The position numbers and the translations under genes were made by a program. DNA of 52,760 bases from Desulfatibacillum sp. (GTDB taxonomy: Bacteria > Desulfobacterota > Desulfobacteria > Desulfobacterales > SpSt-501): positions 1 to 52,760 of the forward strand of contig DYEU01000031.1 in assembly GCA_020725555.1 (NCBI GenBank), in the 5' to 3' direction. Numbering within the stretch: position 1 is the first letter of the stretch; each line of letters opens with the position of its first letter. The notes beneath the pieces were generated by a model. That model saw only the letters and a list, made by a program, of their open reading frames with translations, had not been told where the DNA came from and did no database searches. Positions 4,781 through 27,455 of this stretch are shown here, piece after piece.

Positions 4781-4796
4781 CGCCGCCTCCTTTTCC

Positions 4797-9792: not shown

Positions 9793-10601
9793 AGCGCCTG
9801 ATGATCCACGACCTGCGGCCGGAATACTTCGACCTTCCGCTCGGCGACTACGTGCTGACCTTCGACGACGGGCTCTTTTCCCACTACTACTACCTCCCCC
9901 TGCTCCGTCGCTGCGGCAGCCCGCTTTTGTTTTTCCTCGCCACCGCGCTGGTGGGGGAGGGCCCCGCGCGCCCCCCCTTCGCGGGGCGTCCCCTCCCGTA
10001 CCGCACCCCCGCCGAGTACGCCCGCGCGGCCTTTCTCGCCGGGGACCGCCGCGACTTTCTCACCGTGGAGGAGGCGCGCATCCTCGCCCGGGAGAAGGGC
10101 GTCCGGCTGGGTGCGCACAGCCATTTCCACGCCGTCGGCTTGACCGACGTCGCCCCGCGGCGGCCGCGCCCCGTGAGCCCCTGGAGGGTCGAGCTGTTCG
10201 CCGGGATCCCGGAGGAGCTGCGCCGGGGCCTGAGCATCCGCTCGCGGCTCGCCTTCGCCGGCTTCGTCTTCGAGAACGGCCGGCTGCGGCCGCGACGCGA
10301 GGCCGAGTGGCGCGCGGACATCCGCCGGGACACGGAGTGCTGCCTCGAGTGGTTCGAGCGCCGCCTCGGGGTGCGGCCCGACGCCTACGCCTTTCCTTTC
10401 AACGAGTACTCCCCCGTATTGATCGAGGAGCTCGAGCGCTACGGCTTCCGCGAGTTCTACGGCCCCCCCCGGCCGAAGGACCCCCGCGTTCTCGCCCGCA
10501 TCGACATCGAGGAACTCCTGCCCCCGGGGCGGCCGGGGGCGGAGGCGGCGGAGCGGGGGCGGGGCGGGCCGGGGGGCGGGGATCCCGCCGGGGTGCGATG
10601 A
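9789..10601 (+). CDS. Polysaccharide deacetylase (NodB homology) family protein
   Basis: A 270-residue NodB-fold protein, family carbohydrate esterase 4. VLTFDDGLFSHYYY supplies the catalytic and metal-binding Asp pair, and HSHFH gives the H(S/T)xxH metal motif, so the site looks active. The later AYAFPFNEYSP matches the strand that normally carries an Arg or Pro of motif 3. The start is GTG in a GTGA overlap with the phosphatase gene; the ATG four codons later is an alternative. No signal peptide is seen, so it may act on a cytoplasmic lipid-linked or nucleotide sugar. The C-terminus is Gly/Arg-rich. Confidence 0.85.
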   Translation: MKRLMIHDLRPEYFDLPLGDYVLTFDDGLFSHYYYLPLLRRCGSPLLFFLATALVGEGPARPPFAGRPLPYRTPAEYARAAFLAGDRRDFLTVEEARILAREKGVRLGAHSHFHAVGLTDVAPRRPRPVSPWRVELFAGIPEELRRGLSIRSRLAFAGFVFENGRLRPRREAEWRADIRRDTECCLEWFERRLGVRPDAYAFPFNEYSPVLIEELERYGFREFYGPPRPKDPRVLARIDIEELLPPGRPGAEAAERGRGGPGGGDPAGVR

Positions 10602-11782
10602 CGGTCGCCGTCTACTGCCAGCACGTTCTCGGGGTCGGCCATTTTTTCCGCAGCCTCGAGATCTGCCGCGCGCTCGCCCCCCGGCCCGTGGTCCTGATCA
10701 CGGGAGGGCCGCCGGTCGCGGCCGACCTGCCCGGTCACGTGCGCGAGGTCCGCCTGCCCCCGCTGGTGATGGACGAGCGCTTCTCGGAACTGCGGCCCGC
10801 GGAGCCGGGGGCGGACCTGGAGGCCGTCCGGCGGGAACGCCGCCGCCTCCTGGCCGAGCTCTTCGCCGCGGTCGCCCCCGAGGCCTTCGTGGTCGAGCTC
10901 TACCCCTTCGGGCGCAAGGCCTTCGCCTTCGAGCTCGAGCCCCTGCTTGCGGGCTACGGCCGCCGCGCCGGGGGCCGGGGGCTCGCCGTCTGCAGCGTGC
11001 GCGACGTCCTGGTGGAGAAGCGCTCGGTTGCGGCCCACGAGGAACGCGTGGTCGCCGCCCTCAACCGCGGCTTCGACGGCGTCCTCGTCCATGCCGATCC
11101 CCGCGTGATCCGGCTCGAGGAGACCTTCGGCCGCGTCCGCGACATCGCCCCGCCGGTCGTCTACACGGGCTTCGTGACGCCCCGGCCGCCACCCGGCGCC
11201 CGGGAGCGGGTCCGCGCCGCCCTCGGCCTCGGCGCGGCCGACCGCCTCGTGGTCGCCAGCGCGGGCGGCGGCAGCGTCGGCGGAAGCCTCCTCGAGGCCG
11301 TCCTGGCCGCCTGCGGCCGCCTGCCGCGGCCCCCGCGCGTCGTGCTCCGGGTGTTCACCGGCCCTTTCCTGCCGGAGGAGGACTTCCGGCGGCTTGAGCG
11401 CGCGGCGGTTCTTCTGGAGGCGCAGGTCGAGCGCTTTCGCCGCGATTTCCTCTCCTGGCTCGCGGCGGCCGACCTCTCCGTCAGCCTGGGGGGGTACAAC
11501 ACGACGATGAACCTGCTCGCCGCCGGGGTGCCGGCCCTCATCTGGCCCTTTCCCCAGAACCGCGAGCAGCGGCTGCGCGGCGAGCGGCTGCAGGCGCTCG
11601 GGGCCCTGCGGGTGCTCGCGGACGGCGATCTCGACCCCGCGCGGCTGGCGGCGGCGATGGCCTCGATGCTGGCGAAGCCCCCCGCGCCCCCCGCGGCGCG
11701 CGTCGATCTGGAGGGCGCGCGGGCGACGGCGGCGTGGATCGAGGAGCGCCTGCGCGGCCGCCCCGGCCGGCGCGGGTCCTGA
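10598..11782 (+). CDS. MurG-like glycosyltransferase (GT28 C-terminal fold, COG4671-type)
   Basis: A 394-residue GT-B protein. HVLGVGHFFRSLEICRAL at the N-terminus and SVSLGGYNTTMNLLAAGVP followed by WPFPQNREQ near the C-terminus match the GT28/MurG-like pattern of uncharacterised COG4671 proteins. The donor-binding half begins at VVASAGGGSVGG (residues about 210-225). The ATG overlaps the deacetylase stop (ATGA). It closes the four-gene glycan cassette. MurG itself is unlikely, because the gene lies outside a division/cell-wall cluster and the family usually found with deacetylases is different. Confidence 0.82.
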   Translation: MTVAVYCQHVLGVGHFFRSLEICRALAPRPVVLITGGPPVAADLPGHVREVRLPPLVMDERFSELRPAEPGADLEAVRRERRRLLAELFAAVAPEAFVVELYPFGRKAFAFELEPLLAGYGRRAGGRGLAVCSVRDVLVEKRSVAAHEERVVAALNRGFDGVLVHADPRVIRLEETFGRVRDIAPPVVYTGFVTPRPPPGARERVRAALGLGAADRLVVASAGGGSVGGSLLEAVLAACGRLPRPPRVVLRVFTGPFLPEEDFRRLERAAVLLEAQVERFRRDFLSWLAAADLSVSLGGYNTTMNLLAAGVPALIWPFPQNREQRLRGERLQALGALRVLADGDLDPARLAAAMASMLAKPPAPPAARVDLEGARATAAWIEERLRGRPGRRGS

Positions 11783-11877: not shown

Positions 11878-12573
11878 ATGGCGACCCCCGCATGGTTTTC
11901 CCCCTCCCGGAACTCCCGGCGGATCGGGCGGCAGATCGTGCTGCCCTTCGGCAAGTCCGTCGAGATCGCCTACAAGAGCCTCCGGGTGCGGTTTTTCCGC
12001 TCCCTGATCACGACCCTCAGCCTCGTGCTGGCGGTCTCCTTTTTCAGCTACACCGCCGTCGGCAACGACATCGCCGACGGCCTGCTCGCCTCGGGCCGCC
12101 CCGAGTACCGCCAGCGGCTCCTCCGGGCCGGCTACGATCTCGAGGCCGACGGCACCCGCGTGGCGCGGGGCGCCAAGCAACGCTGGATCCTGATGCTCTC
12201 GCTCCTCGTCTGCACGGTGGGGATCCTCAACGCGCAGCTCATGGCGGTCACCGAGCGGTTCCGGGAGATCGGCACGATGAAGTGCCTCGGGGCGCTCGAC
12301 CGCTTCGTGCTGCGGCTTTTTCTGCTGGAGGCGGCCATGCAGGGGCTGGCCGGCGCGACGGCCGGCGCCGGGATCGGGGCCCTCTTCGCCCTCGCCGCCG
12401 GGGTGCTGCGCTTTGGCCCCCCGGCCCTCTCCTGCTTGCCGGCCGGGGCGGCGGCGCTCTCCCTGCTCGCCGCCGTAGGGGTCGGCGTGGGGCTCAGCCT
12501 TCTCGGGGTTCTCTACCCCGCCTGGGTCGCGGCCCGGATGCAGCCCGTCGAGGCCATGCGGGTGGAAGCATGA
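11878..12573 (+). CDS. Minimal FtsX/MacB-type ABC transporter permease
   Basis: A 231-residue permease with the FtsX architecture but a much-reduced extracytoplasmic part. TM1 lies at residues 40-60 after RVRFFRSLITTL. The segment before TM2 is only about 45 residues, against roughly 200 in MacB or LolC. FREIGTMKCLGAL is the conserved cytoplasmic coupling motif after TM2, and TM3-TM4 follow, ending PAWVAARMQPVEAMR as in MacB-type proteins. The ATPase gene overlaps its stop (ATGA), so this is the permease of that ATPase. The giant FtsX protein two genes on probably forms the other half of the channel. Confidence 0.85.
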   Translation: MATPAWFSPSRNSRRIGRQIVLPFGKSVEIAYKSLRVRFFRSLITTLSLVLAVSFFSYTAVGNDIADGLLASGRPEYRQRLLRAGYDLEADGTRVARGAKQRWILMLSLLVCTVGILNAQLMAVTERFREIGTMKCLGALDRFVLRLFLLEAAMQGLAGATAGAGIGALFALAAGVLRFGPPALSCLPAGAAALSLLAAVGVGVGLSLLGVLYPAWVAARMQPVEAMRVEA

Positions 12574-13331
12574 GCCCGGCGCCCGAGACCGCCCCTTCCG
12601 AAAGCGCGCACGTCGTGCGCGTCTCCAACGTCACCAAGGTCTTCCGCCTGGGGCGGATGGAGGTCCAGGCCCTCAAGGGGATCGACCTGCGCATCCGCCG
12701 CGGCGAATACCTCTCGATCATGGGGCCCTCGGGGTCGGGCAAGAGCACGCTGTTCAACATGATCGGGGGGCTGGACAAGCCGAGCTCGGGCAAGGTCTTC
12801 ATCGACGAGGTGGACATCGCCCAGCTCGACGCCTACGAGCTCGCCTGGCTGCGCTGCCGCAAGATCGGCTACATCTTCCAGACCTTCAACATCATCCCGG
12901 TCATGACCGCGCTCGAGAACGTGACCCTGCCCATGATTTTCGCCGGCATGGACTCCGAGGCCGCCGTCCAGAAGGGCCTGCGGCTGCTCGAGCAGGTGGG
13001 CCTCGGCGACCGGCACAGCCACAAGCCCTCGGAGCTCTCCGGGGGCCAGCAGCAGCGCGTCGCCATCGCGCGGGCCCTGGCCAACGACCCCGCCATCGTC
13101 CTCGCCGACGAGCCCACGGGGAACCTCGACCTCACCACGGGCGAGGAGATCATCCAGCTGCTCAAGCGGCTGAGCGCCGAGCGCCGGGTCACGGTCATCT
13201 CGGCCACCCACGATTTCAAGATGCTCAACGTCTCCGACCGCGTCGTCTGGATCCGCGACGGCCGGATCGACCGCGTCGAGGACCGCGAGCAGCTCTCGAT
13301 CACGATCGGCCGGATCGGTACGCGGGCGTGA
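12570..13331 (+). CDS. ABC transporter ATP-binding protein, MacB/LolD type
   Basis: A complete 253-residue nucleotide-binding subunit: Walker A GPSGSGKST, Q-loop FQTFNIIP, signature LSGGQQQR, Walker B IVLADEPTGNLD and His switch SATHD. The LADEPTGNLD form is typical of MacB/LolD/FtsE-like ATPases that drive mechanotransmission rather than substrate transport through the membrane. It overlaps the small FtsX permease upstream and the giant FtsX fusion downstream (TGATG), which strongly suggests one heteromeric transporter. Confidence 0.95.
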   Translation: MSPAPETAPSESAHVVRVSNVTKVFRLGRMEVQALKGIDLRIRRGEYLSIMGPSGSGKSTLFNMIGGLDKPSSGKVFIDEVDIAQLDAYELAWLRCRKIGYIFQTFNIIPVMTALENVTLPMIFAGMDSEAAVQKGLRLLEQVGLGDRHSHKPSELSGGQQQRVAIARALANDPAIVLADEPTGNLDLTTGEEIIQLLKRLSAERRVTVISATHDFKMLNVSDRVVWIRDGRIDRVEDREQLSITIGRIGTRA

Positions 13332-16300
13332 TGGGCAGGGCGATCCACCCCCGGCGCGGACGCCGGATCCTCTGGGCGGGGCTGCTGGCGGCGCTTCTGG
13401 CGCAGGCCCCGGCCGCGGCCGCCGCCGGGGCGGAGTTCGACGCCGCCCTGCAGGCGCTCGCCTCCCTGGGCGACCGCAGCCCGGGAACGCCGGGGGCGGC
13501 CCGGGCGGCGGCGTTCCTGCGCCGGGAACTCGAGGGGCTCGGCCTGGGCGAGGTCCACCTCCACCGCTTCCACGTCCCGGTGCCGCAGGCGGAGGGGGCG
13601 GTGCTCCGCCTGCCCGGGCGGGCCGAGCCGGTGCGGCTTGCGGCGCTGGCCGGAAACGCCGTCACCCCCCCGGCGATGGAGGAGCCGGAAAGGCTCCGCG
13701 AGGTGGTCTACGTCGGCGACGGGGACCCCGCCTTTTTCTCCGGCCGGCCGGTCGAGGGGGCGATCGTCCTCATGGAGTTCGACTCCGGCCGCAACTGGCT
13801 CCTGGCCGCCGATCTCGGGGCCCGTGCGCTCGTTTACGTGGACCGCGGGGGGTCCCCGCGCATGCGCTTCGAGGAGAAGTTCGAGCTCTCGCCGGTCGAC
13901 TTCCCGCGCTTCTGGGCGCCGCTCGAGACCCTGCGCGCGGCCTTCGGCGACTTCGAGCAGGCCCCCGAGGGGCGGCTCGGCCGGGCCGAGCTGAGCGCCC
14001 GCGCCGGCTGGCGGCGGGCGGCCGCCGACAATCTCGCCCTGCTCGTGCGCGGAACCTCGCCCGCGCGGAGCCGCGAGCTCCTCGTCGTGGAGACCTTCTA
14101 CGACGGCGCGGCCTGGGTTCCCGGCCGCGCGCCCGGCGCCGACGAGGCCGTCGGCGCGGCGACCCTCCTCGCCCTCGCCCGCCACCTGAAGGAACACCCG
14201 CCGGAGCGCCCGGTGCTGCTGCTGGCGACCGCCGGCCGCGCCCAGGCCCACGCCGGGCTGCGCGAGTGGGTCTGGTGCCTCACGGCGCGCGCCCGGGAAC
14301 TGCGCGAGGCCCGCAACGACATGCAGCGCCTCGCCGAACGCACCGGCCGCACGCTCCGCGGTCTCGAGCGGCTGCTGGCCGAGGGGCCCGCGGCGATCGG
14401 CGCCGAGGCCGGGGAGGAGGCCGGGCTCGTCCGCGGCGCTCTCCAGGAGCGGCTGAAAACCGAGGCCGACCGCGTCTCGCGCCGCCTCATGGCCCTGCGG
14501 CTCGCGGGCGGGCGGGACCCCCAGGAGATCCGGCGGCTCAGCGCCGAGCGGCAGCTCCTGCGGCGCCTGACCTGGCGGGCCGACGGGGTGGAGCTCTCGC
14601 CGGAGGAGGCGCGCCTGCTCCGGGCCGCGGCCGGCGAGGCCCTTCGCGACCAGCAGGCCGTGCTCGACGACGCGCGCGCGCAGCGGGAAGTCTACGAGAG
14701 CGCGGCCCGGATGCGCAGCCTGCTCCAGGAGTTCGAGATCGCCGGTGTCGTGTCGCTTCATCTCTCCAGCCGCGGCGACGGGGTCGGCGCCTTCCACTCC
14801 GGGTGGTTCTACCCGCTGCGGCCCCGGATCCACCGCACGCCGGCCTACAGCCGGCTCGACCGCACCCTGCAGGAGGCCGCCCCCCGGGCGGCCGAGGCCT
14901 CGGGGATCCCCGACTTCCTCAAGGACTCCCTGCGGCCGAGCCGCCGCAAGCCCTGGCAGAGCTTTCTGCCCGACCGCCCGGCCCTCGGCGGGGAGGTGAG
15001 CGCGCTCGCCGGCCTGCTCGGCGTGACGCTCGCCACGACCCACGACCTGCGGGCCTTCTGGGGGACCCCCGAAGACACCCTGGAGCGGGTCGATGCCGAC
15101 TACGCCCGGCGCCAGGCCGCGGGCGTCTGCGCGCTGCTTTCGGCGCTCGCCGCCGCACCCGCCCTGCAGGAGGGGGAGGTGCTGCCGAACGGCTTTTCCA
15201 CCCTGAGCGGCCGGGCGCGCTTCCTGCGGCACGGGGAGCTCTTCGCCGACCAGCCCGCCCCGGGCACCGTGCTCCTGTGCTACCAGGGGAGCTCGCGCTT
15301 CTACGCCTGGGTCGACACGCGGGGCCGTTTCCGCCTGAGCGGCGTCGCCGACAAGACCCACAGCCTGCACAAGGTCGTGATCGAGGCCTACCGCTTCGAC
15401 CCCGAAAGCGGCCGCATCGTCGGCACGATCGACAAGAAGGCGACCGGCAAGGAGGCCTACCGCGTGCGGATGAACCGGCGGCAGATGGAGACCGATCTCG
15501 TCCTCTTCGCCGGGGAGGGGATCAGCCTCTACCGGCTGCTCGAGCCGCGCTCCTTCCGCTACCTGAGCCGGGCCGAGGTGATCGACGGGCGGCGCGAGGC
15601 CGAGCCCCTGCGCTGGTTCATGAGCCGGCTGGACACCTGGGCCTCGACGATCACCACGGTGTTTCTCGAAGCCGGGACCCCCTTGAAGATGACCCTCTCG
15701 GACACGCCGCTCAGGCGCAAAGGGGTGCTGCTGAACGCCAGCCCCGAGCACCCCACCGGCACCGGCTACGAGCCCGAGGCCTACCCCCGGCTGCACCGCA
15801 CGGCCTACCGTGCGGCGCGCGACCTGTGGATGCTGATTTCGCCGCGGGTCGCCGAGCTGGAGCGCTGCGGGATCGTCAACGAGCGCATCCGCGGCCTCCA
15901 GGCCGAGGGGCTCGCCGCCCTCGCCGGCGCCGAGGCGGCGCTCGCCGAGCGGCGCTACGACCGGTTCTTCGAGGACGCCGGCCGCGCCTGGGCGCTGGCG
16001 ACGCGGGTCTACGACGACGTCGACCGGACGCAGAAGGACGTGCTCTACGGGGTCCTCTTCTACATCGCCCTCTTTGTCCCCTTCGCCTTCTGCCTGGAGC
16101 GTCTGCTCTTCGCCTGCGTCAACATCTACCGGCGGATCCTCGCCTTTCTGGGCGTCCTGGTCGCCCTGATCGCGGTGATCTACCAGGTGCACCCGGCCTT
16201 CCGCCTGGCCTACAGCCCGATCGTGGTCGTCCTCGCCTTTCTGATCGTCGGGCTGGCCGCCGCCGTGACGCTGATTCTCTACGCCCGCTTCGAACGCGAG

Positions 16301-18193
16301 ATGGCCGCGCTGCAGGTGCGCGCCCAGGTCCTCAAAAGCACCGAGATCGGCCGGTGGAAGGCCTTCACGGCGGCCTTCCTCCTGGGGGTGAGCAACCTGC
16401 GGCGCCGCCCGGTGCGCACGGCGCTCACCTGCACGACGCTCGTGATCCTCACCTTCACGCTGATGAGCTTCACGGCCGTCAAGTCGGTCCGCCGCCACAC
16501 GCGGATCCTCTTCGAGCCCGCGCCGCCCTACCACGGGGTCCTGCTCAAGAACCCCAACTGGCGCAGCCTCCCCCCCGAGGCCGCCGGCGAGATCGCCCGG
16601 GCGTTCGCCCCCGGCACGGCCCTCGCCCCGCGCGCCTGGATCGAGGAGGAGGACCCCACACGCCTTGCCGCCGTGCCGCTTGCGGCCAACGGCCGCCGTG
16701 CGGAAGCCCACGGCCTCCTCGGGCTCTCCGCCGCGGAGGCGCGGGTCTCGGGGATCGACCGGGCGCTGGTCGCCGGCCGCTGGTTCCGCGAGGAGGAGCG
16801 CGAGGCGGTCCTGCTGCCGGAGAGGCTGGCGGCCGCCCTGGGGATCGACCCCGCGCGGCTCGAGGAGGCCCGCGTCCGGATCGGGGGGGTGGAGTTCGCC
16901 GTGGTGGGGATCTTTTCGGGCCGGGAGTTCGAGCAGCGGCGCGATCTCGACGGGGAGCCCCTCACGCCGGTCTTCTTCGTCCAGGAACAGGCGGCCGAAC
17001 TGGGCGAGGAGGAGCTGGAGGCGCTCGAAAGCGGCGACGACGTGCGCGAGCTGCAGAGCCGCTACCAGCACGTGGCCGGCGATGCGACCGTCGTGCTGCC
17101 CCTGCCGTGGGTCATGGCCGCCGGCGGCAGCCTCAAGGCGGTCGCCGTGCAGGCCGGCGCCTCCTCGCCGCGCGAAGCCGCCGAGGCCCTCGTCGACCGC
17201 TTCGGGCTCACCCTCTACAGCGGCGAGCCCTCCGGCACCTTTCTCCACTACGCGAGCGACGCCCTGAGCTACAGCGGCGTCCCCAACCTCCTTGTGCCGA
17301 TCGCGATCTCCGTCTTCATCGTCCTGAACACCATGATCGGGGCCGTCTACGAGCGCAAGCGCGAAATCGCCGTCTACACCTCGGTCGGCCTCGCCCCCTC
17401 GCACGTCGCCTTCCTCTTCGTCGCCGAGGCGCTGGCCTTCGCCGTGCTGAGCGCGGTGTTCGGCTACCTGCTCGCGCAGACCGCGGCGCGGCTCTTCGCC
17501 GGCTCCGCCCTCTGGTCCGGGATCACGGTCAACTACTCCTCGCTCGCCGGCGTGGGCGCGATGGCGCTGGTGATCGGCGTCGTGCTGCTCTCGGTGATCT
17601 ACCCCGCGCGGGTCGCCTCCCGGATCGCCATCCCGGACGTGAACCGCTCCTGGACGCTTCCCCCGGCCCAGGGCCACCGGCTGGAGGTGACGCTGCCCTT
17701 CCTGCTGACCTACCGCGAGCACCGCAGCCTCGGCGGGTTCCTCTACGAGTTCTTCGAGGGGCACCGCGACGTCACCCACGGGGAGTTTTCCACCTCGCAG
17801 GTCGCGGTCGACTTCGCCTGCGAGGAGGCGCCGCGGCTGGACGCGGCCGCGGAGGACTGCCCCGAGGCCGCCTGCGAGGAGCCGCGCTGCCTGGCGCTGC
17901 AAATCCGGCTGTGGCTCGCCCCCTTCGACTTCGGCATCCAGCAGCGGGCGGCGATCCATTTCCGGCCGGCCCCGGGCGAGGCGGGGTTCCTCGAAGTCCG
18001 CGTCGTGCTCGAGCGCGAAACCGGCGAGGCGAACGCCTGGCACCGCATCAACAAGCGCTTTCTCGACATCGTGCGCCGCCGGCTGCTCCTCTGGCGCTCG
18101 CTCGACGACGAGGCCAAACGCCTCTGCGAAGCGGCGCTCGACCGCGCGGCGGCGGCCGCGGAAGCCGACCGATCGGGAGGCCCCCCGCCGTGA
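13331..18193 (+). CDS. Giant M28 peptidase-like / FtsX permease fusion protein
   Basis: A 1620-residue protein. Residues 10-35 form a signal peptide or signal anchor. Residues about 35-310 resemble an M28 aminopeptidase with an inserted PA-like segment, but the zinc ligands look lost: the usual HxD is TFYDG near 255, and the EE motif is absent from ATAGRAQAH near 298. A long helical region and a carboxypeptidase-regulatory-like beta segment follow. Two or three TM segments occur near 905-990; TM, a MacB-like periplasmic domain and the FtsX core (ERKREIAVYTSVGL) occupy about 1030-1440. A soluble C-terminal domain of about 180 residues ends the protein. A GTG one codon upstream is an alternative start. 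It is very likely the second permease of the ATPase encoded just before it. Confidence 0.8.
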   Translation: MGRAIHPRRGRRILWAGLLAALLAQAPAAAAAGAEFDAALQALASLGDRSPGTPGAARAAAFLRRELEGLGLGEVHLHRFHVPVPQAEGAVLRLPGRAEPVRLAALAGNAVTPPAMEEPERLREVVYVGDGDPAFFSGRPVEGAIVLMEFDSGRNWLLAADLGARALVYVDRGGSPRMRFEEKFELSPVDFPRFWAPLETLRAAFGDFEQAPEGRLGRAELSARAGWRRAAADNLALLVRGTSPARSRELLVVETFYDGAAWVPGRAPGADEAVGAATLLALARHLKEHPPERPVLLLATAGRAQAHAGLREWVWCLTARARELREARNDMQRLAERTGRTLRGLERLLAEGPAAIGAEAGEEAGLVRGALQERLKTEADRVSRRLMALRLAGGRDPQEIRRLSAERQLLRRLTWRADGVELSPEEARLLRAAAGEALRDQQAVLDDARAQREVYESAARMRSLLQEFEIAGVVSLHLSSRGDGVGAFHSGWFYPLRPRIHRTPAYSRLDRTLQEAAPRAAEASGIPDFLKDSLRPSRRKPWQSFLPDRPALGGEVSALAGLLGVTLATTHDLRAFWGTPEDTLERVDADYARRQAAGVCALLSALAAAPALQEGEVLPNGFSTLSGRARFLRHGELFADQPAPGTVLLCYQGSSRFYAWVDTRGRFRLSGVADKTHSLHKVVIEAYRFDPESGRIVGTIDKKATGKEAYRVRMNRRQMETDLVLFAGEGISLYRLLEPRSFRYLSRAEVIDGRREAEPLRWFMSRLDTWASTITTVFLEAGTPLKMTLSDTPLRRKGVLLNASPEHPTGTGYEPEAYPRLHRTAYRAARDLWMLISPRVAELERCGIVNERIRGLQAEGLAALAGAEAALAERRYDRFFEDAGRAWALATRVYDDVDRTQKDVLYGVLFYIALFVPFAFCLERLLFACVNIYRRILAFLGVLVALIAVIYQVHPAFRLAYSPIVVVLAFLIVGLAAAVTLILYARFEREMAALQVRAQVLKSTEIGRWKAFTAAFLLGVSNLRRRPVRTALTCTTLVILTFTLMSFTAVKSVRRHTRILFEPAPPYHGVLLKNPNWRSLPPEAAGEIARAFAPGTALAPRAWIEEEDPTRLAAVPLAANGRRAEAHGLLGLSAAEARVSGIDRALVAGRWFREEEREAVLLPERLAAALGIDPARLEEARVRIGGVEFAVVGIFSGREFEQRRDLDGEPLTPVFFVQEQAAELGEEELEALESGDDVRELQSRYQHVAGDATVVLPLPWVMAAGGSLKAVAVQAGASSPREAAEALVDRFGLTLYSGEPSGTFLHYASDALSYSGVPNLLVPIAISVFIVLNTMIGAVYERKREIAVYTSVGLAPSHVAFLFVAEALAFAVLSAVFGYLLAQTAARLFAGSALWSGITVNYSSLAGVGAMALVIGVVLLSVIYPARVASRIAIPDVNRSWTLPPAQGHRLEVTLPFLLTYREHRSLGGFLYEFFEGHRDVTHGEFSTSQVAVDFACEEAPRLDAAAEDCPEAACEEPRCLALQIRLWLAPFDFGIQQRAAIHFRPAPGEAGFLEVRVVLERETGEANAWHRINKRFLDIVRRRLLLWRSLDDEAKRLCEAALDRAAAAAEADRSGGPPP

Positions 18194-20217
18194 ACACCCC
18201 CTCCTGCGAAGCCCCGCCCCCGGCCGCCGCGGAACCCGCGGGGGAGGTGCGCATCCGCCTGCGGGCCGTCGCCCTGGGGCTGCTCCTGGGCCTGGCCATC
18301 TGCGTGCTCACCCCCTTCCAGAACGCTCACCGCATGGGCACGCCGCTCGGCGGCGGCCAGTTCCCCCTGGCGCCGTTTTACCTCCTGCTCTGGGCGATGG
18401 CGGCGACCGGGATGTTGCGGGCGGTCTTCCGCGGCCGGCGCTTCCTCACCGGCCGCGAGCTCCTGCTCGCCTGGGCGCTCATGGTCCTGATGACGGGGAT
18501 CGCCTGGACGGGGCTCGCCCGGGGCTTCTTCATCACCCTCACGGCGCCGGCCCATTTCGCGACGGCGGAGAACCGCTGGGAGGAGGTCCTGCTGCCGCTG
18601 TTGCCCGCCTCGTGGATGCCGCAGGGCCGCGCGGCGATCGAGAGCCTCTACAACGGCCTCCCCGGCGGCCGGGAGATGGGCTGGCTGGAGGTGCTCGGCG
18701 CCGTCCCCTGGGGCGCCTGGCTCGCCCCGCTCGCGGAATGGGGCCTCTTCATCGGCCTCGCCTGGGGCCTCATGGTCTGCATCGTGAGCCTCCTCAGCCG
18801 GCAGCCGCTCTACAACGAGCGCATGAACTTCCCGCTGCTGCGCGTCCCCTTTCTCCTGGAGGAGGCGCTCGACGGGGACCGCCTGGGGGCGCTCCTCCGG
18901 CACCGCTACTTCCTCGCCGGCCTGCTCGTGCCGGTCCTGCTGCACACGATCAACGGCCTGAGCTTCTACCACCCCTCGGTCCCCGCGATCCCCACGGTGC
19001 TGCTCGCGGGCAAGTACTTCCCCAAGACCGGGCTCTTCTCCGGCTTCGTCAAGCTCAAGCTCTATGTCTACCCGGCCTTCATCGGCTTCGCCTTCCTCAC
19101 GGCGAAGCCCGTCTCCTTCTCGCTCTGGTTCTTCTTTCTCGCCGGCGGGCTGCTCGGCGGGCTTTTGCCCGTGCTGGGGATCCAGGTCCCGGCGGCGGCG
19201 CTCGGGACCACCTTCGGCCCCACCCTCGCGCGCGCCGAGGAAATGCAGGTCGTCGGGGCGACGGCCGTCTTTTTCGTCTTTCTCGCCTGGCTGGCCCGCT
19301 TCCACCTGCTCGATCTCCTGCGCCGGGCCTTCGGCCGGGCCTCCGACGCGGGCGCGGAGGGCGACTGGATCGCCACGCGGCCGGCCTTCTGGGGGGCCGT
19401 CGCCTGCGGGGCGGGGATGACGGTGTGGCTCACCCGCGCGGGCCTGCCGCTCGGGCCCGCGCTCCTCGTGCTCGCCGCCTGCCTGCTGTTTCTCCTCGTC
19501 GCCGTGCGCGTCGTCTGCCAGGGCGGCATCACCTACTTCACCCTGACGGCGGCCCCGCTCGACGGGCTGACCGCCTTTTTCGGCTCCCGCCCCTTCACCG
19601 CCGCCGGCCTCGCCGTCGCCGCCGTGGTCCAGAAGGTGCTGTTTCTCGACCTGCGCGAGGCCCTCATGCCGGCCCTGCTGCACGCCCGCAAGGTGAGCGA
19701 CGGCGTGCGGCACCCGCGCCGCGTGGCCGCCGCCGTCGCCCTCTGCCTCGTCCTCGGCGCGGCGGCCTCGTTGGCGGCGATGCTGGCGGTCGCCTACAAA
19801 TACGGGATCCGCGATCTCTCGATGGACTGGGCGCTCCGGACCAACCTCTCCCTGTACGAGGACGTCATCCGCCTCGTCGAGTCCCCCGCCGAGCCCGGCC
19901 GCTGGGTGCTCTCCTTCGTCGCCGCCGGCGCGGCGGTCATGCTGGCCCTCGTGCTCGGCTACCACCGCTTCTACTGGTGGCCGATCCACCCGATCGGCTA
20001 CCTGACCGCCTACAGCTCGGCGATGGCCATTTTGTGGTTCAGCTTTTTCATCGGCTGGCTGGCGAACGCCGTCTGCCTGCGCTACGCCGGGCTGAGCGGC
20101 TACCGCGACGTGCGGCTGTTTTTCGTCGGCCTGATCGTGGGCGATTTCTTCATGGCCGGCAACTGGGCCCTCTACGGCCTCTTCAGCCACGCCAGCTACC
20201 TCGTGCTGCCGGAGTAG
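18190..20217 (+). CDS. Polytopic membrane protein, DUF6785/DUF6784-like
   Basis: A 675-residue integral membrane protein with roughly 12 hydrophobic segments. The start GTG overlaps the preceding stop (GTGA). After a short Pro/Ala tail come RAVALGLLLGLAICVLTP and MGTPLGGGQFPLAPFYLLL, which I recognise as the beginning of large uncharacterised proteins annotated DUF6785. A loop RMNFPLLRVPFLLEEAL in the first half and the motif CQGGITYFT in the second are probably functional. Oligopeptide-transporter-like ancestry is possible. The next gene encodes a similar protein. No function is established, but the tight coupling to the FtsX/ABC genes implies a shared envelope process. Confidence 0.75.
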   Translation: MNTPSCEAPPPAAAEPAGEVRIRLRAVALGLLLGLAICVLTPFQNAHRMGTPLGGGQFPLAPFYLLLWAMAATGMLRAVFRGRRFLTGRELLLAWALMVLMTGIAWTGLARGFFITLTAPAHFATAENRWEEVLLPLLPASWMPQGRAAIESLYNGLPGGREMGWLEVLGAVPWGAWLAPLAEWGLFIGLAWGLMVCIVSLLSRQPLYNERMNFPLLRVPFLLEEALDGDRLGALLRHRYFLAGLLVPVLLHTINGLSFYHPSVPAIPTVLLAGKYFPKTGLFSGFVKLKLYVYPAFIGFAFLTAKPVSFSLWFFFLAGGLLGGLLPVLGIQVPAAALGTTFGPTLARAEEMQVVGATAVFFVFLAWLARFHLLDLLRRAFGRASDAGAEGDWIATRPAFWGAVACGAGMTVWLTRAGLPLGPALLVLAACLLFLLVAVRVVCQGGITYFTLTAAPLDGLTAFFGSRPFTAAGLAVAAVVQKVLFLDLREALMPALLHARKVSDGVRHPRRVAAAVALCLVLGAAASLAAMLAVAYKYGIRDLSMDWALRTNLSLYEDVIRLVESPAEPGRWVLSFVAAGAAVMLALVLGYHRFYWWPIHPIGYLTAYSSAMAILWFSFFIGWLANAVCLRYAGLSGYRDVRLFFVGLIVGDFFMAGNWALYGLFSHASYLVLPE

Positions 20218-20245
20218 CCCCGGCGGGGTGCGGACCTCGAGGACG

Positions 20246-22207
20246 ATGCGGGAAGACCGAGAACTCCAGGAATACCGGGACCTGCTGCAGGCCCCGTCCG
20301 CCTTCGAGGAGGGCTTCGACTGGAAGACGGTCGTGGGCGCCGTCTTCATCGGCTTCCTCATGATGCCCGGGAGCATGTACCTGCAGCTCGTCATCGGCAC
20401 GGGGATCGGGCCCGCCGCGCGCTGGGTGACGATCATCCTCTTCGCCGAGCTCGCCAAGCGGGCCTACAGCGAGCTCAAGCAGCAGGAGATTTTCCTCCTC
20501 TACTACATGGCCGGCGCGGCGCTGCACACGCCGTTCCAGGGGCTGCTCTGGAACCAGTACCTCGTGCAGTCGGACGCGGCGCGGATGCTCGGGCTGGTCG
20601 AGCTCATCCCCGCCTGGGTGGCCCCGCCGCTCGACTCCCCCGCGCTCCTCGAGCGCAGCCTCTTCCACCGCGACTGGCTGGTTCCGATTCTGCTGCTCAT
20701 CGGCACGCAGATCATCACCCGCATCGACCAGTTCGGGCTGGGCTACGCGCTCTACCGCATCACCTCGGACGTGGAAAAGCTGCCCTTTCCCATGGCGCCG
20801 GTCGCGGCCCTGGGGACCATGGCCCTCGCGGAGTCGCGCGAGGAGCGCGAGACGGGCTGGAAATGGCGCGTCTTCGCGATCGGCGGCATGATCGGGCTCC
20901 TCTTCGGCGGGGTCTACGTGCTCCTGCCCGCCCTGTCGGGCCTGATCTTCACCGAGCCCGTGCGGCTGATCCCCATCCCCTGGGTGGAGCTCTCGCAGCA
21001 CACCGAGGCCTGGCTGCCCGCGGTCGCCACCGGCATCCAGCTCGACCTGGGCCTCCTCTTCGTCGGCATGGTGCTGCCCTTCTGGGCGGTGATGGGCGGG
21101 CTGGGGGGGCTCCTCATCACCCTGATCGCCAACCCGATCCTCCACCGCCACGGCATCCTGCAGCGCTGGCACCCGGGGATGCGCACCGTGGAGACCGTGT
21201 TCGCGAACAATTTCGACTTCTACCTCAGCTTCGGCATCGGCCTCGGCCTGGCGATCGGACTGATCGGGTTCTGGCACGTGGCGAAATCCTTCCGCGGCGG
21301 CGGCGCGGGGTCCCGCGGGAGGCTGCAGGACCTCTTCCGCCCCCCCCCGGGGCGCGGGGACATCCCCTTCTGGATCTCGATTGCGATCTACCTGTTCTCG
21401 ACCGTCTCCTACATCCTGCTCTGCGTGTGGCTGGTCCCGGGGTTCCCGGTGATCTTCTTTCTCCTCTACGGGTTTCTCTACACGCCGATCCTCTCCTACA
21501 TCACGGCGCGGATGGAGGGGATCGCCGGGCAGTTCGTGAGCCTGCCGCTCGTGCGCGAGGCGAGCTTCATCGCCGGGGCGAAGTATTTCGGCTACCAGGG
21601 CATCGAGATCTGGTACGCCCCGATCCCCATCCACAACTACGGCGGGGCGACGGTCGGCTTCCGCGAGATCGAGCTCACCGGGACGAGCATCCGCGGCATC
21701 ATCAAGTCGGAGATCGTGGTCTTCCCGGTGGTCATGGTCGCCAGCCTCCTCTTTTCGCAGTTCCTTTGGCAGCTCGCCCCGATCCCCTCGGCCGCCTACC
21801 CCTTCGCGCAGGAGCTCTGGCACCTGCAGGCGCTCAACCAGCTGCTCATGCAGACCTCGACGCTCGAGGGCGACTCCCCCTTCTTCCAGGCGCTGAACTG
21901 GGCCTTCGTCGGCGCCGGCACCGTGCTCGGGGTCGCGACCTACGGGGTCCTGAGCCTCTTCGGGCTGCCCGTCATGCTGGTCTACGGGCTGGTGCGCGGG
22001 TTGGGGCAGAGCACGCCCCACGGGCTGCTCCTCGAGGTGGCCGGCGCGTTGCTCGGGCGCTTCCTCTTCCTGCGGCGCTACGGGGCGCGCTGGCGCCAGT
22101 ACGCCCCGGTGCTGCTGGCCGGCTTCTCCTGCGGGATGGGCCTGACGGGGATGTTCGCCATGGGGGTGACCCTCATCCACAAGTCGCTCTCCCGGCTGGC
22201 GTACTGA
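20246..22207 (+). CDS. Second polytopic membrane protein, distantly similar to the preceding one
   Basis: A 653-residue protein with about 12 membrane spans. The order of features mirrors the preceding protein: FLMMPGSMYLQLVIG, a short loop with AWVAPPLDSPALLERS, a span ending RITSDVEKLPFPMAPVAAL, then a second half with FFLLYGFLYTPILSYITARMEG. FPMAPV corresponds to FPLLRVP in the neighbour, so the pair look like divergent paralogues related to OPT-like transporters. The ATG is preferred to a GTG at 20228 because GAGG lies just before it, but the choice is uncertain. It may form a heterodimer with its neighbour. Confidence 0.72.
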   Translation: MREDRELQEYRDLLQAPSAFEEGFDWKTVVGAVFIGFLMMPGSMYLQLVIGTGIGPAARWVTIILFAELAKRAYSELKQQEIFLLYYMAGAALHTPFQGLLWNQYLVQSDAARMLGLVELIPAWVAPPLDSPALLERSLFHRDWLVPILLLIGTQIITRIDQFGLGYALYRITSDVEKLPFPMAPVAALGTMALAESREERETGWKWRVFAIGGMIGLLFGGVYVLLPALSGLIFTEPVRLIPIPWVELSQHTEAWLPAVATGIQLDLGLLFVGMVLPFWAVMGGLGGLLITLIANPILHRHGILQRWHPGMRTVETVFANNFDFYLSFGIGLGLAIGLIGFWHVAKSFRGGGAGSRGRLQDLFRPPPGRGDIPFWISIAIYLFSTVSYILLCVWLVPGFPVIFFLLYGFLYTPILSYITARMEGIAGQFVSLPLVREASFIAGAKYFGYQGIEIWYAPIPIHNYGGATVGFREIELTGTSIRGIIKSEIVVFPVVMVASLLFSQFLWQLAPIPSAAYPFAQELWHLQALNQLLMQTSTLEGDSPFFQALNWAFVGAGTVLGVATYGVLSLFGLPVMLVYGLVRGLGQSTPHGLLLEVAGALLGRFLFLRRYGARWRQYAPVLLAGFSCGMGLTGMFAMGVTLIHKSLSRLAY

Positions 22208-22231
22208 GGGCGGCGGGGTGCGGGAGGGGGC

Positions 22232-23113
22232 ATGCCGTCGGGGCCGTGGCAGCGGGTGGCCTGGGACGAGGTGAGCCTCGAGATCCCGGCCCACTGGTCG
22301 CCGGTGCGCGTCGAGGAGCGGGAGCTCGCCTTCGAGGAGGGCGGGGAGGCGGCGCTCGAGCTCGGCTGGCGGGAGGTCGGGGCGGCCTTTTCCTTCGACC
22401 GGCCGCTCGGCGACCTGCGGCGCAAGGCCCGCCGGCGGGGGGCCTTCTTCGTGGAGCGCCCGCTGCCCGGCGGCCCGCCCGCGGGCCTGGAGGGCCGCGG
22501 CTTCGAGTGGCGTGAGCCGGGTCGCGCCGCGCTGGGGGCGATCCTCTTCTGCCGCGCCTGCCGCAAGGCGAGCCTGCTGCAGTTCCCCGGCGGGGCCGCC
22601 GCCGCGGAGGCCGAGGGCCGGGCGGCGCGCGTGCTGTCCTCCTTCCGCGACCACCGCGCGGACGGGCGGCGCGCCTGGCGGCTGTTCGACGCCGAGGCCG
22701 TCCTCCCCGCGCGCTGGCGCCTGCGGCGGCCGCGCTTCGAGGCCGGCCGCTACGCCCTCGAGTTCGCCTCCCGCGGCGAGGCGCTCGCCCTGCTGCGCTG
22801 GGCGCCCGCGGCCGTCCTGCTGGAGGAGCATCCGCTCGCCGAGTTCGCCGCGCGCTTCGCCGGCGGGCAAGGGCTGGAATTCCGCGCCTGCCCCCTCGGC
22901 GGGGAGGAGGGGGTCGAGGCCGTGGAGCGGGCGCCCGCCGCGGGGCTGCCGCGGCTCCTCGCCCGGCTCACGCGCCGCTTTCGCCGCATCCGCCTTTGGC
23001 ACGACGCGGCGCGGAACCGGATTCTCGGCGTGCGCTTCGAGGCCCGCCGGGAGATCGGCGACGAGGAGATGGAGGCGCTCTGCCGCGGCTGGAGGAGCCA
23101 TGATTCGACGTAA
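22232..23113 (+). CDS. Unknown protein with two tandem copies of one domain
   Basis: A 293-residue soluble protein without signal peptide; I do not recognise the family. Residues about 9-140 and 155-290 look like copies of the same fold. Each begins with a Pro-x-x-Trp turn (IPAHWSPV; LPARWRLR), continues with LAFEEGGEAALELGW or LEFASRGEALALLRW, and ends in a Cys- or His-containing strand. The last 14 bases overlap the PqqD-like gene, so the two products are probably made together. A GGAGGGGG stretch just before the ATG serves as ribosome-binding site. Function unknown; a partner or client of the PqqD-like protein is a reasonable guess. Confidence 0.7.
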   Translation: MPSGPWQRVAWDEVSLEIPAHWSPVRVEERELAFEEGGEAALELGWREVGAAFSFDRPLGDLRRKARRRGAFFVERPLPGGPPAGLEGRGFEWREPGRAALGAILFCRACRKASLLQFPGGAAAAEAEGRAARVLSSFRDHRADGRRAWRLFDAEAVLPARWRLRRPRFEAGRYALEFASRGEALALLRWAPAAVLLEEHPLAEFAARFAGGQGLEFRACPLGGEEGVEAVERAPAAGLPRLLARLTRRFRRIRLWHDAARNRILGVRFEARREIGDEEMEALCRGWRSHDST

Positions 23114-23474
23114 GCGCCGCCCGGCGCTTGCCCGTGCGGAGGCGCTCGGCTGCATCCCCGTGCGCAACCGCGCGGTGGTCGAGGAACGGCTGGAGAACGG
23201 CACGCTCCGGCTTTCCGTGCCGGTCGGCGTGCACCCGTGGATCGCGCGCCTCTCCGCCTGGCTGGGCGCACCCCCGCCGGAGCCCCCGCGGCGGCGGATC
23301 GAGCTCGACCGGCTCGGCACCGCGGTCTGGGAGCGCCTGGACGGGGTGGCGACGCTGGGGGAAATCGCCGCGGCCTTCGCCAGGGAGCACCGCCTGCCGG
23401 CGCGGGAGGCGGAGGCGGCGGTCGGCCGCTTCGTGCGCGAGCTGGGACGGCGCGGGCTGGTGGGGCTGCGCTGA
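23100..23474 (+). CDS. PqqD-like protein
   Basis: A 124-residue protein whose C-terminal 60 residues match the PqqD fold: IELDRLGTAVWERLDG, then TLGEIAAAFAREH and a final helix VRELGRRGLVGL. PqqD proteins normally bind a precursor peptide and present it to a radical SAM enzyme. No radical SAM gene or short precursor gene is seen nearby. The N-terminal half is basic and Arg-rich, with no recognised domain. The start overlaps the preceding gene by 14 bases, and GGAGGAG lies directly upstream. It is the last gene of the seven-gene cluster. Confidence 0.8.
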   Translation: MIRRKRRPALARAEALGCIPVRNRAVVEERLENGTLRLSVPVGVHPWIARLSAWLGAPPPEPPRRRIELDRLGTAVWERLDGVATLGEIAAAFAREHRLPAREAEAAVGRFVRELGRRGLVGLR

Positions 23475-23494: not shown

Positions 23495-23827
23495 TCAGAT
23501 CTCGCGCAGGGCGTCTTCCGGGCTGGGGAGGATCGGCAGGAAGGAATCGAAGCCTGCGATTTCGAAGACCTCCTTCACGTAGTCCTGCATGCAGCAGAGC
23601 AGGAGCTTGCCGTTATCCCGCTTCAGGGCTTTGGCGGTCTTCAGAATGACCCGCAGGCCGGCGCTCGAAATGTAGTCCAGATGTTTGAAATCGATCACGA
23701 CCCCGCGGGTGCCGTTGCTCAGGGCCTCGGCCAGGCGCTGCTCCAGGGCGGGCGAGGTGTTCGAGTCCAGCCTTCCCTGGAGGCGGAAGAGCCTTGCGTT
23801 CCCGCGGGTTTCCTCGGTGATCTCCAT
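23495..23827 (-). CDS. STAS-domain anti-sigma factor antagonist
   Basis: A 110-residue single STAS domain. DFKHLDYISSAGLRV contains the Ser that the partner kinase phosphorylates in SpoIIAA/RsbV proteins, and MEITEETRG is a standard beginning. I use the ATG at 23827 because GGGAGG lies six bases upstream; an ATG six codons earlier (23845) overlaps the preceding stop as ATGA and is a real alternative. It is the last gene of the exporter operon, immediately after its predicted kinase. Its dephosphorylation by the SpoIIE-type phosphatase at 28295-29755 is inferred. Confidence 0.9.
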   Translation of the reverse strand: MEITEETRGNARLFRLQGRLDSNTSPALEQRLAEALSNGTRGVVIDFKHLDYISSAGLRVILKTAKALKRDNGKLLLCCMQDYVKEVFEIAGFDSFLPILPSPEDALREI

Positions 23828-23841
23828 GTCGGCCTCCCGGT

Positions 23842-24294
23842 TCATCCCGCCTCGCAGGCGGGGGGTTCCTGCCGCTCGATCCGCTTGCGGAGCGTGAGCA
23901 CGTTTTTCCCCTGCGTGCGGCGGTAGCTCATCTCGTCCATCAGGTTGCGCACAAGGTGCAGCCCGAGGCCGCCGACCCGGCGCTCCTCGAGCGGGCAGGG
24001 CGCTTCGACGGGCGCACAGGCCACGGGGTCGAAGGGCACGCCTTCGTCCTCGATGACGATCGTCAACCGCCGGGGGTCCGCCCGCAGATGGAAGCGGATG
24101 CGGTGTTCCCCCCCCTGCGGAAAGCCGTAGGTGATGATGTTGGTGAAGAGCTCGTCGAGGGCGAGGTTGACCTCGAGCAGGGTGCGGGCGGGGATCCCGG
24201 CCCGGCGGCCGAGCGCCTCCACATGACGGCTGAGCGCCGCGAGCTCGCGGATGTCGTTTTTCAGCTCGAAGACGAGGCAGCCTTGGGCGTTCAT
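23842..24294 (-). CDS. RsbW-like anti-sigma factor / serine kinase ATPase
   Basis: A 150-residue GHKL ATPase of the SpoIIAB/RsbW type. The N-box is LALDELFTNII, the G1 box VIEDEGVPFDP and the G2 box GGLGLHLVRNLMD. Such proteins phosphorylate a STAS antagonist and hold a sigma factor or another effector. The STAS gene follows with only an ATGA-type junction. No sigma factor gene is present in the window, so the true output may be another target, possibly the exporter itself. Confidence 0.9.
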   Translation of the reverse strand: MNAQGCLVFELKNDIRELAALSRHVEALGRRAGIPARTLLEVNLALDELFTNIITYGFPQGGEHRIRFHLRADPRRLTIVIEDEGVPFDPVACAPVEAPCPLEERRVGGLGLHLVRNLMDEMSYRRTQGKNVLTLRKRIERQEPPACEAG

Positions 24295-24335: not shown

Positions 24336-24866
24336 TCAGAGCAGGCTGACCCCCAGCCGCGGGAGGCATCGCCCGCAGGCTTCGGTCATCTCGGTTAAAA
24401 AGTCCTCCTCCCAGCGGATGATGGACTGGACGACCGTCTGCAGCAGACGCGGGATCTGGGCGGGGAATTGTTCGAGGGCCTTGGCGAATTTTTCCTGGTC
24501 CAGCACGAAGCAGACGGTCCTCTCCTCGGCGCGCAGGCTGTAAAGCCGCCGGCACTCGCACAGCAGGCTCAGGCCGCCGATGAAATCGCCCGGCCCGTAA
24601 AAACGGATCGTCTGCGGCGGGCCGTCGCTTTGCCGCTCCAGCCGCAGGCGCCCCCCGATCACGGCGAAGGCCGAGGCGTCCTCCTCGCCCTGCTCGAACA
24701 GGAACTCCCCCGCCCGAAACCGCCGGCGGCTGCCAAGATAGGCGAAAACCTTGAGGGATTCAAGGGGAAACCCCGAGAAGAAGTCGATCTGGCGCAGGAT
24801 CTCCAGGTTTTCCTCGTACTCGCTGCTTTCGCCGCCCACGGGGTCATCGCTTGCCGGCGAGTTCAT
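24336..24866 (-). CDS. Cyclic nucleotide-binding-like domain protein without DNA-binding domain
   Basis: A 176-residue protein with one cNMP-binding beta-roll: FRAGEFLFEQGEEDASAFAVIGGRLRL, then GPGDFIGGLSLL. The phosphate-binding cassette normally contains Gly-Glu and Arg-Ser/Thr-Ala; here it reads GDFIGGLS with CECRRLYSLRA, so classical cAMP binding is doubtful. The C-terminus has amphipathic helices but no helix-turn-helix, so it is not a CRP-type transcription factor. Its ATG lies 23 bases inside the end of the exporter gene, which points to a role as a sensor or regulatory subunit of that exporter. Confidence 0.85.
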   Translation of the reverse strand: MNSPASDDPVGGESSEYEENLEILRQIDFFSGFPLESLKVFAYLGSRRRFRAGEFLFEQGEEDASAFAVIGGRLRLERQSDGPPQTIRFYGPGDFIGGLSLLCECRRLYSLRAEERTVCFVLDQEKFAKALEQFPAQIPRLLQTVVQSIIRWEEDFLTEMTEACGRCLPRLGVSLL

Positions 24867-27345: not shown

Positions 27346-27455
27346 GGACGGTCTCGCGGGCGGCGGGTTCTCCGGGCGGCCGGGCTTCCGGCTCTTTATC
27401 CCGCTTTTCACCGCGGCGCAAGGAGGCCGGGCCCCCGCGGCCGCCCGGGCGGCGC

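Follow-up and report, generated by a model that had tools for sequence, protein, structure and literature searches.

A cluster in Desulfatibacillum sp. and its relatives combines type VII-like ABC parts with a candidate OPT/YSL-fold membrane protein pair

MacB-type members of the type VII ABC class use ATP for work in the periplasm, not for transport through the inner membrane, and FtsEX and BceAB employ this architecture in cell division and antibiotic sensing, respectively (PMC5985334). The barley transporter YS1 (HvYS1), of the OPT/YSL class, is a homodimer for which an elevator-like mechanism coupled to protons has been proposed (PMC9691689). Here, we describe a gene cluster that combines parts resembling both. 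The window is a 52,760-nucleotide stretch of contig DYEU01000031.1 (GenBank assembly GCA_020725555.1) from Desulfatibacillum sp., whose genome measures 3.59 Mb. It holds seven genes, g1–g7, all on the plus strand at positions 11878–23474. Among these, g1–g5 form a strict unit across genomes, and g6 and g7 are an accessory pair nested in genomes that carry this core. Our tentative reading, to which we give a probability of about 40%, is that a type VII ABC complex (g1–g2–g3) and an OPT-fold pair (g4–g5) act on an envelope glycoconjugate.

The main survey covered 297 Desulfobacterota genomes, with searches confined to the phylum of the window. The g4 family PF20581 scores above its cut-off in 20 of them, and g5 and full-length g3 are likewise found in 20 each. 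The three sets consist of the same 20 genomes, which carry 12 family labels and are referred to below as core genomes. Under random placement, two sets of 20 among 297 would coincide with a probability of 1.6e-31, a figure that ignores descent. Per genome, only the best candidates were scored (two for g3, four for g5, eight for g6, and 26 for dABC, an MsbA-like exporter encoded downstream of the cluster), and negatives were hand-picked from the 277 core-negative genomes (eight for g1 and g7; 16 for dABC and for GTb, a glycosyltransferase encoded just upstream of g1). A g1 ortholog of at least 148 bits is present in all 20 core genomes and the eight chosen negatives reach at most 53.8 bits, some FtsX match being found in all 28. 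A further 124 of the 297 genomes match the g3 profile; among the matches listed, these are short FtsX or M28-region stretches at no more than 49 bits. One genome (G096) holds a sub-cut-off PF20581 fragment, and PF20581 has no match in 14 control genomes. The g3 gene is split over two contigs in G226, and in G320 its match spans two in-frame TGA codons, yet lies within an open frame of 1638 residues.

Joint presence is accompanied by close, though not invariant, linkage. The g2 gene adjoins g3 in 20/20 core genomes, and g1 lies beside g2 in 18, with g1 on another contig in G050 and G381. Adjacency of g3 and g4 is seen in 15/20 (G226 counted as adjacent); the remainder are separated by 2.8 kb in G016 and ~12 kb in G198, occupy separate contigs in G050 and G381, or fall at contig ends in G301. 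The g4 and g5 genes are neighbors in all core genomes except G166. Three families (f67, f86, and f111) are mixed, with the system present in G072, G181, and G301 plus G363, and absent from their relatives G361, G109, and G134, respectively. In these families the tested parts are present or absent as a set, apart from a weak GTb match in G109, so that shared descent by itself does not account for the co-occurrence. Correlations between tree distances are 0.94–0.96 among g3, g4, and g5 and lower (0.78–0.83) with g2; in this set, some sequences begin at the match and not at their true start, and G226 contributes an incomplete g3. Counting the window's own genome, g5 is carried by 33 of 96 nearer relatives, and one of six other genomes of the same genus lacks it.

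The g1, g2, and g3 products have the composition expected of a type VII complex. Both g1 and g3 score above the cut-off of PF02687 (FtsX) and g2 is a PF00005 ATPase, so that an FtsX domain is found in each permease half next to a separate LolD-like ATPase, as in MacB, LolCDE, and FtsEX. The g1 protein is minimal, with four hydrophobic segments predicted to cross the membrane and almost no periplasmic domain. The g3 protein is far larger: a signal is followed by an M28-like domain, a further periplasmic region, three transmembrane segments, an FtsX/MacB-type permease whose putative MacB-like periplasmic core sits between its first and second transmembrane segments, and a C-terminal domain that found no match in profile scans. 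The MacB_PCD match of this core stays below the cut-off (22.7–24 bits against 27; 1.3e-4 to 5.6e-5), and g1 has none. Against the described type VII complexes, g3 adds the M28-like domain, the long extra periplasmic part, three extra transmembrane segments, and the C-terminal domain. Equivalence to LolCDE is not indicated, with the NCBIfam LolCE model at 52.1 bits (cut-off 362.45), below which g1 remains, and LolD at 231.9 bits for g2 (cut-off 307.75).

The M28-like region of g3 falls below the Pfam cut-off, and its profile positions 35–319 align to the aminopeptidase of PDB entry 2ek8 at 1.2e-10. The motif positions, which we take to be HxD, D, and EE, were located in g3 through this alignment. 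In all 16 aligned members, HxD is replaced by FxD and the EE motif is gone. Because both motifs are lost, we read the domain as a non-catalytic binding module, with an expected role in binding, not cutting. The permease module of g3 also matches the PADLOC model CARF-LolE_TM (PDLC01991) at 1.3e-50, which was the best score for this module among the models tried and lies far above Pfam FtsX; 16/16 members match. The matched stretch covers the permease module only (profile positions ~167–593 of 810). The first-pass annotation, drawn from the letters and open reading frames of the window, had named a minimal FtsX permease, a MacB/LolD-type ATPase, and an M28-like/FtsX fusion. The first two and the FtsX fusion are borne out, and "M28-like" holds for the fold and fails for a peptidase, whose catalytic motifs are absent.

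The g4 protein belongs to DUF6785/DUF6784, with PF20581 at 1.1e-145 (486.4 bits) and PF20580 at 3.6e-33 (114.2 bits), both above cut-off. An AlphaFold2 model built from 36 aligned orthologs has a pLDDT of 86.5 and a pTM of 0.87. Its only PDB matches at E ≤ 0.001 are two HvYS1 structures, 7wsr and 7wst (Foldseek E 3e-7, TM 0.59/0.65). VIA-align superposes the model on nearly the whole HvYS1 chain, with a Z-score of 22.4 and an rmsd of 4.0 over 548 of 600 residues, the next unrelated chain scoring 5.2. An OPT/YSL transporter fold for g4 is thus well supported by the predicted structure. The g5 protein matches no Pfam or NCBIfam family, and its profile found nothing meaningful among sequences of solved structures. 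Its model (40 orthologs) has a low pLDDT of 48.8, probably due to the high likeness among the orthologs: pairwise identity across the 20 genomes is 65–96% for g5 and 38–88% for g4. This low-confidence model has HvYS1 as its only PDB match at E ≤ 0.001 (Foldseek E 1.5e-5), with a Z-score of 10.0 over 451 residues, the next structure reaching 6.4 over 95. By predicted fold, g5 is likely a divergent OPT/YSL-type partner of g4.

Relative to HvYS1, g4 and g5 differ in standing at 11–12% identity and outside PF03169 (OPT), and in being an unlike pair encoded beside an ABC complex. PF03169 matches neither g4 nor g5 of the window and exceeds its cut-off in none of 28 genomes, the lone signal being a sub-threshold 18.7 bits inside g5 of G166. 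By hhalign, with narrow and wider alignments, no sequence relation between g4 and g5 was detected, so any relation of theirs is one of fold. Of the early description of two related polytopic membrane proteins, a shared fold remains probable and a sequence relation is not supported; the label "OPT-like", given to g5, was apt, and the fold extends to the DUF6785 protein g4. By likeness to the HvYS1 homodimer, we infer that g4 and g5 probably form a heterodimer. A search of a plasmid collection returned no match to g4.

Two further proteins track the core. GTb is present in 20/20 core genomes, at 38–56% identity in the 19 others, and a second GTb-like protein (25–30% identity) accompanies it in every one of these genomes. 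The 16 chosen negatives gave a single weak GTb match (97 bits, 30%, in G109). The dABC protein is found in 20/20 core genomes and in 0/16 chosen negatives (E 1e-100). The distance from GTb to g1 is at most 15 kb in 13 core genomes; in the other seven, GTb is farther away or on another contig. The dABC gene is near the core, or near g6 or g5b (described below), in six of the 20. Both are thus often unlinked to the core, and their co-occurrence with it persists without linkage. The cluster border, first drawn at g1–g7, was therefore too narrow. The GTb match of G016 (G016:C1:3996047-3997216) contains one in-frame TGA, and this copy may be broken or misassembled. Like MsbA-type exporters, dABC combines ABC_membrane and ABC_tran domains, and MsbA is its best NCBIfam model; its score is half of the cut-off (304.4 bits against 602). 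It further differs by an unusual insertion of ~250 residues in its nucleotide-binding domain, where an N-L/I-L/I-F/Y motif occurs three times (residues 458, 548, and 706).

The g6 and g7 proteins behave differently. The g6 gene occurs in 10 of the 297 genomes, all within the 20, and g7, for which all candidates were scored, in exactly these 10 among the 28 searched. The two are adjacent in 8/10; in G121 they stand at opposite ends of the core, and in G050 they are split between contigs. In 6/10, g6 is distant from g4/g5 or placed on a separate contig. As a pair they are constant, and their association with the core is optional. Co-occurrence in other genomes had been set beforehand as the test of a single seven-gene machine: g1–g5, shared by the same 20 of 297 genomes, pass it strikingly, and g6 and g7, missing from 10 of the 20, hold together only as a pair within the core. 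This pattern favors one machine with an accessory module over a fixed set of seven genes. No Pfam family (E 0.1) or NCBIfam model matched g6, 18 relatives giving weak scattered matches, and its profile found nothing meaningful among sequences of solved structures. The duplication first suggested for g6 is weakly supported, with one half aligned to the other by hhalign at P 0.029 and a probability of 1.7%.

The g7 protein falls in the PqqD fold superfamily (PF05402, 42.5 bits against a cut-off of 23.4), in keeping with its early label, under which it would act as a peptide-binding adaptor. It does not qualify as the PqqD of PQQ synthesis (TIGR03859, 20.8 against 46 bits), staying below the other listed NCBIfam PqqD cut-offs as well, and its profile weakly matches lasso-peptide PqqD chaperones among sequences of solved structures. 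From the PqqD peptide chaperones, with which it shares the PF05402 match, g7 differs by an N-terminal extension of ~60 residues and by its constant partner g6. A third accessory protein, g5b, looks secreted, measures ~207 residues, and is encoded between g5 and g6 in most titled relatives. It occurs in 16 of the 297 genomes, all within the 20, and a profile search did not find it in the window's own genome. G301 and G363 hold three g5b-like matches each, and the other 14 g5b genomes hold one.

Gene order was compared in 26 titled loci found through short exact peptide patterns from one protein. All lie in records titled Desulfobacterales, Desulfobulbaceae, Desulfosarcinaceae, Desulfococcus, Desulfofustis, Desulfopila, or Deltaproteobacteria, and the best relatives are metagenome-assembled genomes and a few isolates of Desulfobacterales, Desulfobulbaceae, and Desulfopila. 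The order g1–g2–g3–g4–g5 on one strand is found in 18 loci (g5 of L034 reaches the edge of its contig); seven are cut by contig ends before at least one gene, and one (L039, CP070652.1) is a decayed second copy that retains g4, the C-terminal part of g3 only, and the first 100 residues of g5. G071 holds a similar g5 fragment of 101 residues. In the uncut loci (n = 17), a sample biased to close relatives by the use of short exact peptide patterns, g6 and g7 follow g5 every time, sometimes with other genes between. Of the 18 titled loci with both g6 and g7, 15 encode the STAS-domain protein downstream of g7 on the opposite strand.

Several loci carry additional genes. A radical SAM and SPASM protein is encoded just upstream of g1 in L033 (2494–3390), and in L055 (12019–13515) g5 and g5b flank a gene for a B12-binding radical-SAM protein. 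In L046 (5131–7584), a YfhO-type membrane protein of 817 residues lies between g5b and g6; the YfhO family is tied to glycan modification. The radical-SAM genes speak for peptide modification and the YfhO gene for glycans. In Desulfopila aestuarii, dABC and a gene of the cyclic-nucleotide-binding type stand between g5 and g5b. A Desulfobulbaceae locus (L051, 14161–15479) has a sigma-70-type factor and a protein without a Pfam match between g5 and dABC. A short-peptide tandem repeat in the g3 frame at a contig edge (L162, G226:C41) is probably an assembly artefact.

In the reading we favor, with a glycoconjugate as substrate, complex formation, energy coupling, and direction would be as follows. 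The g1, g2, and g3 proteins would assemble into an asymmetric type VII complex like MacB, LolCDE, and FtsEX, in which the small half g1 pairs with the giant half g3. The periplasmic part of g3, including its M28-like domain, would bind substrate without cutting it, and g4 and g5 would be a pair of OPT/YSL-fold membrane transporters. The two GT28 (MurG)-type transferases may build a glycoconjugate in the cytoplasm, and dABC would carry it across the inner membrane. ATP-driven periplasmic movements of g1–g2–g3 might then free it, pass it on, or power its transit jointly with g4 and g5. The g6, g7, and secreted-looking g5b proteins and the STAS, RsbW-like, and cyclic-nucleotide-binding set would be accessory or regulatory. 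The bolder proposal of a novel type of envelope machine, with type VII mechanotransmission coupled to a heterodimeric OPT/YSL-fold transporter as an ATP-driven glycoconjugate conduit, seems doubtful at present.

Several points weigh against a glycoconjugate machine. Other characterized OPT-family proteins import peptides or metal chelates, which does not point to glycans. HvYS1 is an importer of this class (PMC9691689). The radical-SAM genes of L033 and L055, beside a PqqD protein, hint at peptide modification. The g5 fold match comes from a low-confidence model, and the tree-distance correlations partly reflect shared descent. Best-candidate scoring and hand-picked negatives mean that absences could hide weak relatives. 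Among the neighbors, genome profiling covered GTb and dABC, while GTa, the phosphatase, and the deacetylase-like gene lie near the core in part of the relatives.

Because OPT, M28, and PqqD folds handle peptides elsewhere, the main rival is a peptide or metal-chelate system, in which an oligopeptide or metallophore is taken up or exported by the OPT-fold pair, with the M28-like domain as a periplasmic binding platform and g7 as a peptide chaperone. The OPT fold of g4 and probably g5, the aminopeptidase fold of the M28 region, the PqqD match of g7 above its Pfam cut-off, and the radical-SAM proteins inside two clusters, which raise its odds slightly, all agree with this reading. However, just two of the 26 titled loci had recognizable radical-SAM genes in a scan of part of the neighbors, g6 and g7 are missing from half of the core genomes, and peptide uptake would need neither the two GT28-type transferases nor the MsbA-like exporter that track the core. 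We regard it as unlikely, though a serious contender. That the locus instead joins two or three independent systems (g1–g3, g4–g5, and g6–g7), brought together by shared niche or descent, would fit the separation of g3 from g4 onto different contigs in two genomes and by 12 kb in a third, the displacement of g5 from g4 in G166, and the distance of g6 from g4 in 6/10. Yet precisely because these parts are separable, the identical 20-genome sets of g3, g4, and g5 count against independence, as do the families in which parts are present or absent jointly, and we consider it improbable.

An FtsEX-like regulator, in which g1–g2–g3 would pass ATP-driven force to periplasmic cell-wall enzymes or a sensor and g4 and g5 would supply a signal or a recycled wall fragment, draws on the MurG-type transferases, which hint at cell-wall-like sugars, and on the use of the type VII architecture in FtsEX cell division and BceAB antibiotic sensing (PMC5985334). 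No hydrolase or hydrolase adaptor was seen among the annotated neighbors, many mapped neighbors being left unannotated, and, in contrast to core division machinery, the system is lacking in 277 of 297 genomes; such a regulator is quite improbable. A role in anti-phage defense, suggested by the kinship of the g3 permease module in all 16 members to PADLOC CARF-LolE_TM fusions, is the least credible reading. The match is limited to that module, the other g3 pieces have no PADLOC match, and Pfam finds no CARF domain in g3. The defense reading of the cluster was rejected on this ground.

Table 1 Features of the g1–g7 cluster and neighboring genes in the window
Feature	Position	Strand	Description	Basis
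GTa	8027..9157	+	GT4 glycosyltransferase, first of an operon-like upstream run	PF00534
Histidine phosphatase	9154..9792	+	4-base overlap with GTa	PF00300
Deacetylase-like	9789..10601	+	Polysaccharide-deacetylase-like protein	PF01522, 26.2 bits (cut-off 23.1)
GTb	10598..11782	+	Glycosyltransferase whose C-terminal domain is of the GT28 (MurG) type; closely precedes g1	PF04101, 2.7e-10
g1	11878..12573	+	Minimal FtsX-type permease, 231 aa	PF02687, 9.6e-16
g2	12570..13331	+	LolD/MacB-type ABC ATPase, 253 aa	PF00005
g3	13331..18193 (alternative GTG start 13328)	+	M28-like/FtsX fusion, ~1620 aa	Pfam, profile alignments
g4	18190..20217	+	DUF6785+DUF6784 membrane protein, 675 aa	PF20581, PF20580
g5	20246..22207 (alternative GTG start 20228)	+	Polytopic membrane protein, 653 aa	No Pfam/NCBIfam family
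g6	22232..23113	+	Soluble protein, possible two-domain repeat, 293 aa	No Pfam family
g7	23100..23474	+	PqqD-fold protein with conserved N-terminal extension, 124 aa	PF05402
STAS	23495..23845	-	STAS-domain protein (anti-sigma antagonist type), accessory	PF01740, 1.4e-23
RsbW-like	23842..24294	-	HATPase_c_2 protein, accessory	PF13581
cNMP	24336..24866	-	Cyclic-nucleotide-binding-domain protein, accessory	PF00027
dABC	24844..27411	-	MsbA-like ABC exporter, 855 aa	PF00664+PF00005

The seven tightly coupled plus-strand genes of the first-pass annotation are present and correctly placed (Table 1), with overlaps of 1–14 bases at four of the six junctions and short gaps at the other two. Specifically, g1/g2 (12570–12573) and g3/g4 (18190–18193) overlap by 4 bases each, g2/g3 by 1 or 4 bases depending on whether g3 starts at the ATG at 13331 or the GTG at 13328, and g6/g7 by 14 bases; the g4/g5 gap is 10 or 28 bases, depending on the g5 start (20228 or 20246), and the g5/g6 gap is 24 bases. 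Long minus-strand frames such as 12869–18043 were interpreted as shadow frames arising in GC-rich DNA, given that homologs of the plus-strand genes occur in the same order elsewhere. Beside the cluster lies an apparent trp operon (236–6871, minus strand), in which anthranilate synthase component I was identified by Pfam and the remaining genes by eye, and an iron/manganese superoxide dismutase gene (7286–8002, plus strand; Pfam), whose N-terminal extension resembles an export signal by eye.

Each part of the system is of a known kind, and the combination is undescribed in the open-licence literature searched, where no description was found among the top-ranked matches. The same literature returned no mention of DUF6785 or DUF6784, and nothing that joins OPT, FtsX, and Desulfobacterota. 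The cluster represents an undescribed multi-gene envelope system of at least seven co-occurring proteins, with accessories, in relatives of sulphate reducers, and it is present in the genomes of two named strains, Desulfopila aestuarii DSM 18488 and Desulfopila sp. IMCC35008. DUF6785/DUF6784 and the highly conserved g5 family gain a predicted fold and a genomic context, and PADLOC-style annotation could mislabel g3-like genes as defense genes. If the ABC complex does drive the OPT-fold pair, this would be a new way of energizing the OPT transporter class.

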